Source: an uncultured bacterium (GTDB taxonomy: Bacteria > Cyanobacteriota > Vampirovibrionia > Gastranaerophilales > Gastranaerophilaceae). Taken from it: 64,000 bases of DNA. How positions within the stretch are numbered: position 1 is the stretch's first letter; every line of letters begins with the position of its first letter. The notes beneath the pieces are model-generated. The model saw nothing but the letters and a program-made list of their open reading frames with translations, had not been told where the DNA came from and did no database searches. Positions 3,346 through 54,725 of this stretch are shown one piece after another. Position numbers and translations under genes: made by a program. The stretch covers positions 1 through 64,000 of the forward strand of contig CAIPUE010000015.1 in the NCBI GenBank assembly GCA_903868125.1, given 5' to 3'.

Positions 3346-3419
3346 ACCATTCACCGTTTACCGTTTACCGTTTACCGTTTACCGTTTACCGTTTACCGTT
3401 TACCGTTTACCGTTTACCA
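3346..3419. repeat. (CCGTTTA)9 heptamer array at the 3' end of tig
   Basis: Nine exact copies of a 7-bp unit run from 3354 to 3416 with degenerate flanking copies. On the minus strand the unit reads CGGTAAA. The array overlaps the last codons of tig: the final Asn-Gly-Lys-Arg and the TAA stop are written in array sequence. Similar arrays lie behind groES, rpoD and hisB. Confidence 0.95.
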
Positions 3420-52191: not shown

Positions 52192-52197
52192 TATAAT
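52192..52197 (+). promoter_or_regulatory. -10 box 6 nt before the hisC start
   Basis: TATAAT ends 6 nt before ATG 52204. The earlier in-frame TTG at 52189 lies upstream of the -10 and cannot be the start. Confidence 0.55.
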
Positions 52198-52203
52198 TAC
52201 ACT

Positions 52204-53922
52204 ATGAAAGCAAAAAAAACAATTCAAGAATTAAGCGCATATCCTGTTTCACTTTTTGATGAAGAAGGTTATTTAAAAATAGACAGCAACGAAAGTGATT
52301 TCGGACCTTCGCCAAAAGTTCTTGATACTCTGCGCCACGTTGAACCGTGTGATGTCCGGTATTACCCGTTTTATGGCGAATTATTAAAAAAATTAGCGAA
52401 TTTTCATGGGGTAAATATTGAAAATATAATTCTTACGGCAGGTGCCGATGAGGCAATAAGCTCAATTCTCGGTACTTTTTTGGAAGCGGGACAAACCGTT
52501 CTAACCGTCACTCCTTCTTTTGTTATGCCCAAAATTTATTCAAAAATTAATGGGCTTAAATATCTGGAAATTCCTTATGAGGATAAATGGCAATTCCCTA
52601 GCAAAAAATTTATACAAAATATTGATAATGCAGATTTTATACACATTACAACCCCAAATTCACCTACAGGAGAGGTGATTTCACAGGATGTTATCGCACA
52701 AATTATTGATAAATCTGGCGATAAAGCCGTATTGATTGATGAAACTTACGCAAATTATTCGGGTATAACCAATCTGGAGTTGACAAAAACAAACGAAAAC
52801 GTTTTTATCGTACGTTCCTTTTCCAAAGATTTTGCGCTTGCGGGGCTAAGGCTCGGCTATATTGTTTCAGCAGAACAAAATATTAAAAACCTAAGAAAAT
52901 ATCTCAGCCCTTACAATGTTTCTAATTTGACTGTTAAAGCAGGAATTGCGGCACTTGATGATATTCAATATTTTGAAGATGTTAAAAGCGAGATGGAAAA
53001 ATCAAAAAAAGTTTTATCAGATGGGTTGGAAAAATTAGGCGCAAAAATTTATCAGTCAAAAACAAATTTTATATGCGTTGATTTTGGTGAAAAAGCAGAT
53101 TTTATTTACAAAAAATTATTAGACAACAAAATCAAAGTTAAATATTATCGAAAAAGAGAAATGCTTGAAAACTGTTTCAGAATTACCGTTCCCAGACTTG
53201 AAAACACCTTAAAAATATTGGAAACGTTAAAAACAAAACCAACTATTATTTTTGATGTGGACGGGGTTTTAATGGATGCTTCAAAATCTTATAGAGTGGC
53301 TGTGCAAAAGACTTTTAACCATTTTTCCAATAAAGATGTTTCATCAGAGGAGCTTTCTGCGGCGAAAAAACACGGTGGACTTAATAATGACTGGGATTTA
53401 ACCGAATTTTTGTTGAAAAAATATGGGTATGAAATAAATAAAGATGAGATTGTCGAGATTTTTCAAGCTTACTACACAAAGCTGGCAGAAATAGAAGAAC
53501 CTCTTGTTGATTGCGAATTTTTTGAAAAGTTGGCAAAAAATTATAATTTATCCGTATTTACAGGGCGTTTAAGACGGGAAGCATTTTTCACTCTTGATAA
53601 ACACAATTTTACGAAATATTTTTATCCGATAATTACCATGGATGAAGTCGGGCTTCATCGCCAAAAACCTGATTGCTTGGGACTCGAAATTATTAAAGCA
53701 AAAATCATTACCGATAAGATTTATTACTTGGGTGATACGGTTGATGATATGACTTGTGCTATAACTGCAAATGTATTAGGAATAGGGATATTACCTCCAC
53801 AGGATAAATCAGACGATTTGAAAAATCTGTTGAAATCTAAAAATGCCATGGTAGTATTAGAACAGGCAACTGATTTAGGAAAATTTTTAGAAGAACTAGA
53901 GGATGGCTATGCGAAAAAGTGA
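52204..53922 (+). CDS. hisC: Histidinol-phosphate aminotransferase fused to HAD phosphatase
   Basis: 572 residues. The first about 345 are HisC (SNESDFGPSPKVL, TTPNSPTGEVIS, IDETYANYSG, PLP-Lys in RSFSKDFALAGLRLGY). Residues about 345-572 are a HAD-family hydrolase with every motif intact: IIFDVDGVLMD, SVFTGRLRRE, RQKPDCLGLE, YYLGDTVDDMTCA. Fused, the two could catalyse consecutive steps 8 and 9 of histidine biosynthesis (transamination, then phosphate removal). HAD domains with this pattern are known in cyanobacteria. The gene overlaps hisB (step 7) by 20 bp. The phosphatase function is inferred from the fusion and context. Confidence 0.88.
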   Translation: MKAKKTIQELSAYPVSLFDEEGYLKIDSNESDFGPSPKVLDTLRHVEPCDVRYYPFYGELLKKLANFHGVNIENIILTAGADEAISSILGTFLEAGQTVLTVTPSFVMPKIYSKINGLKYLEIPYEDKWQFPSKKFIQNIDNADFIHITTPNSPTGEVISQDVIAQIIDKSGDKAVLIDETYANYSGITNLELTKTNENVFIVRSFSKDFALAGLRLGYIVSAEQNIKNLRKYLSPYNVSNLTVKAGIAALDDIQYFEDVKSEMEKSKKVLSDGLEKLGAKIYQSKTNFICVDFGEKADFIYKKLLDNKIKVKYYRKREMLENCFRITVPRLENTLKILETLKTKPTIIFDVDGVLMDASKSYRVAVQKTFNHFSNKDVSSEELSAAKKHGGLNNDWDLTEFLLKKYGYEINKDEIVEIFQAYYTKLAEIEEPLVDCEFFEKLAKNYNLSVFTGRLRREAFFTLDKHNFTKYFYPIITMDEVGLHRQKPDCLGLEIIKAKIITDKIYYLGDTVDDMTCAITANVLGIGILPPQDKSDDLKNLLKSKNAMVVLEQATDLGKFLEELEDGYAKK

Positions 53923-54493
53923 AAAGATTAGAAAGACACTCGAAACTGAAGTTAAGATTGAATTAAATCTTGATGGAACCGGCAAACGAGAGATTGAAAC
54001 CCCAATAAAATTTTTTACGCACATGTTGGAACAATTCGCCGCACACGGCGGATTTGATTTAAAAATCAATGTGCAATCACATGATAAAGACAACCACCAC
54101 GTTGTCGAAGATGTTGCGCTTACACTTGGCGAAGCTTTCAAAGATGCTTTGGGGGATAAAAAAGGGATAAATCGTTACGGAAGTTTTATTTTACCAATGG
54201 ATGAGGCGCTTTCGCTTGCGGTAATTGATTTGAGCGGACGGGTATTTTCCAAGGTGGATATTAACATTAAGGACGAAAAAACATCTGATTTTGAAACGAT
54301 TTTGCTTCCACATTTCTTCAACAGTTTTGCGCAGGCTAGCCAGTCGACAATCCACATAAAAATGCTTGATGGTAGTGACACTCACCACATAATCGAAGCG
54401 GTTTTTAAATCCTTTGCAAGGGCTTTGAACATTTCTTGCGCGATTAATGAGAATAACAAAGACGTAATTCCTTCGACAAAAGGGATTTTGTAA
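53903..54493 (+). CDS. hisB: Imidazoleglycerol-phosphate dehydratase
   Basis: Step 7 of histidine biosynthesis. 196 residues with the two Mn-binding motifs DNHHVVEDVALTLGEA and DTHHIIEAVFKSFARAL and the MDEAL loop. It is the single-domain form; the phosphatase carried by E. coli HisB is absent, and a HAD domain is fused to the upstream HisC instead. The ATG lies within the end of hisC. Confidence 0.95.
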   Translation: MAMRKSEKIRKTLETEVKIELNLDGTGKREIETPIKFFTHMLEQFAAHGGFDLKINVQSHDKDNHHVVEDVALTLGEAFKDALGDKKGINRYGSFILPMDEALSLAVIDLSGRVFSKVDINIKDEKTSDFETILLPHFFNSFAQASQSTIHIKMLDGSDTHHIIEAVFKSFARALNISCAINENNKDVIPSTKGIL

Positions 54494-54541: not shown

Positions 54542-54725
54542 GAACGGTAAACGGTAAACGGCGGCAAGAAGCCCTAGGTCGTTAAAGTAGGGTGGGTTCC
54601 CTAACCCACCGACAATAAACCCCAAAGAAGTAAAAAGGAAAAAGGAAGCAAGAACGACAAAACCGTTTACCGTTTACTGTTTACCGTTTACTTCGTTTAA
54701 ACCCATCAACCATTCAACTAAAAAA
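54542..54725. repeat. Composite repeat between hisB and leuD
   Basis: A (CGGTAAA)n array at 54542-54563, a CGGCGGCAAGAAGCCC link, then AAAGTAG and a GTAG palindrome (54587-54610, GGTGGGTT/AACCCACC), an ACAATAA spacer with GAAGTAAAAAG, and a second reversed (ACCGTTT)n array near 54660. The same order of blocks is found behind rpoD. No gene is seen. Confidence 0.85.
54587..54610 (+). repeat. REP-like palindrome with GTAG head
   Basis: GTAG (54587-54590), then GGTGGGTT/AACCCACC (54591-54598 and 54603-54610) with a 4-nt loop. Confidence 0.75.

Follow-up and report, generated by a model that had tools for sequence, protein, structure and literature searches.

A HisC–HAD phosphatase fusion encoded beside hisB in Gastranaerophilales is a probable bifunctional aminotransferase and histidinol-phosphatase

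In a window of 64,000 nucleotides (contig CAIPUE010000015.1, positions 1 to 64,000) from an uncultured Gastranaerophilaceae bacterium, a gut-type relative of cyanobacteria, whose genome spans 1.89 Mb and is 99.7% complete, one open frame on the forward strand (52204-53922) encodes a 572-aa protein that joins HisC to a C-terminal HAD phosphatase domain. Judged from sequence evidence, this protein is very probably a bifunctional enzyme, histidinol-phosphate aminotransferase plus histidinol-phosphatase (HolPase). The initial annotation had offered the same reading, which is now supported by the co-occurrence of the fusion with hisB, by the his context of its relatives, and by the failure to find a rival among the HolPase classes searched. 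The region which that annotation had treated as a unit (52204-54493) comprises the fusion gene and hisB together. As had been described, hisB (53903-54493, forward strand) begins before the fusion gene ends, so that the two overlap by 20 bases (53903-53922), and carries no phosphatase domain: its 196-aa product is a single-domain IGP dehydratase, IGPD being the sole Pfam domain (E 1.1e-56). The pathway step numbers given at that time were one too high, since in the 10-step histidine scheme HisB catalyses step 6, HisC step 7, and HolPase step 8 (PMC5516325, PMC8305728).

The fusion frame could begin at TTG 52189 or ATG 52204, and both starts lead to the same end at 53922. We favor ATG 52204 because relatives use the same start and because TATAAT, a probable -10 box (52192-52197, forward strand), lies 12 bases upstream, a spacing that also suggests a leaderless transcript. 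Among same-family relatives inspected, TATAAT is likewise found 12 bases from the start in five (L022, L026, L027, L029, and L030) and 13 bases from it in L025; L021 has TATGAT instead, and the motif is absent in L004 and L015. That the fusion is real, as first proposed, follows from the single reading frame and from Pfam and NCBIfam matches to both parts; the Pfam matches are Aminotran_1_2 at residues 29-337 (E 5e-44) and HAD_2 at residues 353-530 (E 1.5e-16). It is neither an assembly artefact nor a chance event, given that the fusion recurs in 30 of the 117 genomes surveyed within the order and at 33 of 80 loci of a second collection. Its closest named relative among the best 80 loci belongs to a Candidatus Gastranaerophilales genome (L053; 74% identity in HisC and 69% in HAD). 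An AlphaFold2 model of the whole protein, built with a 23-sequence alignment, reached a pLDDT of 90.9 and a pTM of 0.86.

The HisC domain occupies residues 1-344 counted from the ATG (52204-53235, forward strand). Its catalytic residues are intact: N152, D179, Y182, R216, R326, and the PLP lysine are invariant or nearly so across 23 aligned fusions, and the lysine itself, K208 (52825-52827), is kept in all of them except L029. In Foldseek searches the top matches of this part were HisC crystal structures (3hdo and 8bj4, E ~2e-26). The HAD domain, the putative HolPase, follows at residues 345-572 (53236-53919, forward strand) and contains all four HAD motifs, in agreement with the initial annotation. 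Motif I, D351-V-D353-G (53254-53262), which supplies the predicted nucleophile D351 and acid/base D353, is invariant in intact members; alignment of the HADs places motif II at T453 in FTGR (53560-53568), motif III at K488-P (53665-53670), and motif IV at GDTVDD, residues 510-515 (53731-53748). A cap signature, GGLNNDW (53374-53394), is common, with small variation, to fused and separate his-operon HADs. In the predicted structure the segment that links motif I to motif II consists of helices only, as in a C1 cap, and the four motifs together with this modelled cap assign the domain to subfamily IA of the HAD superfamily. Consistent with that assignment, the domain modelled alone (pLDDT 91.9) had as its top structural matches only HAD-IA phosphatases, including AlnB and phosphoglycolate phosphatase (Z about 20-23); a sequence search of solved structures gave no close match, the best being 3kbb (E 1e-14).

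Counting against the HolPase reading, neither part reaches the curated cut-off of the NCBIfam model that fits it best. HisC falls just short of TIGR01141 (259.7 bits; cut-off 276.55), and the HAD domain reaches about 85-89.5 bits with TIGR01548 (HAD-SF-IA-hyp1; cut-off 140.2), yet this is the best family for it and for the separate his-operon relatives. We therefore file it as TIGR01548-like only. Among five HADs tested, only the Aminicenantes relative passed the cut-off: two separate HADs scored 131 and 148.7 bits, a Woesearchaeota fusion 125, and a lone HAD 99. TIGR01548 matches over the cut-off occurred in 2 of 14 control genomes. No match to TIGR01656, the HAD-IIIA model of the HisB-N type (cut-off 84.15 bits), was listed for the domain.

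In the mechanism that we propose, HisB, the product of the overlapping gene, would make imidazole-acetol phosphate, which the HisC domain would transaminate to L-histidinol phosphate using PLP bound to K208. The HAD domain would then hydrolyze L-histidinol phosphate to L-histidinol and phosphate; D351 would form the aspartyl-phosphate intermediate, D353 would act as acid/base, and motif IV would bind Mg2+. HisD, encoded elsewhere in the genome, would complete the pathway. We infer the substrate, both activities, and any benefit of fusion, of which equal dosage would be one; channelling between the two domains is only a possibility.

We scored hisB (PF00475) and hisD (PF00815) in the 117 genomes of the order and found them in 27 and 29 genomes, respectively, with the fusion in 30, including a few fusions cut by contig ends and one split between frames. 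The fusion is present in all 27 hisB-positive genomes but in only three of the 90 without hisB (Fisher's exact p = 1.7e-23, a value inflated by kinship because the counts are not independent). The two genomes with hisD only are incomplete assemblies (66% and 88%). The association also holds within genera: in g14, G076 has the fusion and hisB while the other members have neither, and in g21 both are present in G105 and absent from G109.

The strongest evidence for the HolPase reading is the his context of the HAD relatives. For a scan of a second collection, which comprises 84,980 species genomes, the query was the HAD alignment only, so that his context was not built into the search; of the best 80 loci, which were kept, 76 lie in a his context. 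By ORF analysis, 33 of the 80 are fused to HisC in one frame (30 of the Gastranaerophilales type and three from Woesearchaeota), while at 43 the HAD is a separate gene 3' of hisC and directly 5' of hisB; in one of the latter (L124) hisC was unseen since the contig record ends there. These 43 belong to Acidobacteriota apart from one Aminicenantes and one Chthoniobacterales locus, and in most of them hisD precedes hisC. The remaining four HADs are lone genes. An unrooted tree sets the separate his-operon HADs (with support of 79 only), the fusions from Woesearchaeota, and the HADs of Gastranaerophilales apart from one another, and separate cyanobacterial HADs form a distinct long branch in which SYR and NNDW are kept and motifs II and IV differ. 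A search of plasmids returned a single distant HAD. At one fusion locus (L071, 2954-4705), no hisB match was seen within the next 2 kb.

An alternative is that the HAD acts on another metabolite or serves a housekeeping role, its his link reflecting co-regulation alone, and that an unrecognised enzyme performs the HolPase step. HAD-IA phosphatases are often promiscuous, and lone HADs with intact motifs persist, one of them (L155, in G097) in a genome without hisB and hisD. These lone Gastranaerophilales genes nest inside the fusion clade as one offshoot clade (SH-aLRT 99), and in L062 about 70 additional N-terminal residues look, by eye, like a HisC end; we therefore take them to descend from fusions in which the HisC part was lost, and their placement in a single offshoot makes them look like derived reuse. 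The offshoot does imply that the HAD clade is not exclusively one of HolPases. Against the alternative as a whole, in several phyla fused and separate HADs alike are found directly next to hisC and hisB, and the nucleophile is lost in relatives lacking his genes. We consider it improbable. Lone HADs with intact motifs were also seen adjoining an amidase gene (L062, L065, L073, L079, and L155).

Nucleophile loss bears as well on the idea that the HAD has no phosphatase activity and is an appendage of HisC with a regulatory or structural role. Three genomes (G093, G098, and G111) have neither hisB nor hisD and no strong hisF match, and in their fused HADs the nucleophile D351 is replaced by N and the GDT of motif IV by GSS or GSN; in G111 the PLP lysine is lost too. 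The dN/dS of these HADs is about 0.1-0.3, a rough estimate since dS is near saturation, which suggests that the nucleophile-less HisC-HAD proteins are still under selection for something and that a non-catalytic role is possible there. By contrast, all his-positive members examined retain the full motif set, and we give the appendage idea almost no credence for the fusion described here. As a separate observation, genomes lacking hisB, hisD, and a strong hisF (loci L027, L029, L030, and L171) keep a HisC-HAD protein without the nucleophile and a HisA-IE ORF, apparently under purifying selection.

Having considered the domain itself, we turn to other enzymes that might fill the HolPase step. 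The search of the window's genome covered the IMPase, PHP/HisJ, and HisB-N classes. No match to Inositol_P (PF00459), expected of IMPase-type HisN, was found anywhere in the genome; the best HisJ (TIGR01856) score was 30.7 bits, against a cut-off of 90.2. The only PHP proteins are one of Pol III alpha size and two resembling RNase Rnm/nucleoside-bisphosphatase, and the lone weak TIGR01656 match elsewhere, under the cut-off, is a YqeG protein. Thus the second complete HolPase that the initial annotation had named as grounds for abandoning its reading is absent as far as IMPase, HisJ, and HisB-N types are concerned. Across the order, IMPases occur in 14 of 117 genomes, all hisB-positive, and are conceivable HolPases there; one checked against the HisN model scored 178 bits (cut-off 275). 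Being found in only 14 of the 27 hisB-positive genomes and missing from the window's own, IMPase was rejected as the general HolPase. HisJ was likewise rejected as the order's alternative: all 17 carriers over the cut-off lack hisB and hisD, and their HisJ-family PHP protein therefore probably has another role (loci L036-L045 are of this kind). Neither IMPase nor HisJ is present in 13 of the 27 hisB-positive genomes, the window's included. It is highly improbable that a distinct HolPase, whether HAD-IB or of another class, performs the step and renders the fused HAD redundant, because this would leave unexplained both the his context of 76 of 80 relatives and the co-loss with hisB.

Several known systems come close to the one described here. 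Escherichia coli HisB (HisNB) is likewise a fusion of a HAD-type, aspartate-nucleophile HolPase with another his enzyme, but there a HAD-IIIA domain is joined to IGP dehydratase, whereas here the partner is HisC and the HAD is C-terminal, of subfamily IA, and C1-capped, which bears out the early remark that the fusion partner differs from the familiar HisB one. The bifunctional MtlD of Acinetobacter (7ocn; Z about 20) also fuses a HAD-IA phosphatase to the maker of its substrate, mannitol-1-phosphate dehydrogenase, although in another pathway and with the HAD N-terminal rather than C-terminal. Described HolPase classes comprise HAD-IIIA HisB-N, PHP, IMPase-like HisN, and the T. onnurineus HAD (PMC5516325), as well as HAD-IB NMV_1317 (PMC7606547). 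The NMV_1317/PA0335 enzyme is, like our candidate, a non-HisB HAD filling a HolPase gap, genetically shown in that case, but it is encoded by a separate gene and belongs to subfamily IB, not IA (PMC7606547). In Haloferax volcanii, disruption of the HAD hydrolase gene HVO_0431 causes histidine auxotrophy (PMC4300041), and the protein has been proposed as HolPase (PMC8305020); this separate gene is analogous to the fused HAD and may belong to the same clade.

On balance, we favor the view that TIGR01548-like, C1-capped HAD-IA proteins constitute a further widespread HolPase class, separate in Acidobacteriota, Aminicenantes, and Verrucomicrobiota and, in Gastranaerophilales and Woesearchaeota, joined to HisC, and that the HisC-HolPase fusion stands outside the five surveyed in 2007 (A/F, IE, HF, NB, and IED; PMC1963479). 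Cyanobacterial and haloarchaeal members perhaps also belong to this class. In that survey the his genes known to fuse were hisA, B, D, E, F, H, I, and N (PMC1963479), to which the present fusion adds hisC; none of the five catalogued fusions involves hisC, and later or other literature may name one. Our literature searches returned only an unrelated mention of TIGR01548 and nothing joining Melainabacteria with histidine biosynthesis, and PMC11378808 has nothing on the HolPase step. In GapMind, HolPase was low-confidence in 42 of 148 prototrophs, the commonest such step of amino acid biosynthesis (PMC7311316), and many prokaryotes can therefore look falsely histidine-auxotrophic. The fusion thus indicates which gene family may carry out a step of histidine synthesis that frequently goes unassigned in genomes, and the HAD clade with the cap signature SYR ... 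GGxNNDW ... FTGRxxxEA offers a directly testable candidate HolPase gene in several phyla.

Elsewhere in the window's genome we found hisA-IE, hisD, and hisF. HisA and HisIE form one protein whose gene adjoins hisD; at L168 (3974-5203) HisA is fused to HisI-HisE immediately 5' of hisD, and similar HisA ORFs of about 400 aa recur throughout the order. A second HisH/HisF-like pair (L170, 1932-3312) lies beside an amidotransferase-type gene, resembles glycosyl-amidation loci, and possibly functions in sugar modification. Finally, tandem 7-base repeats (CCGTTTA) occur at positions 3354-3418 of the window, and the same unit recurs inverted at 54546-54680, between hisB and leuD.
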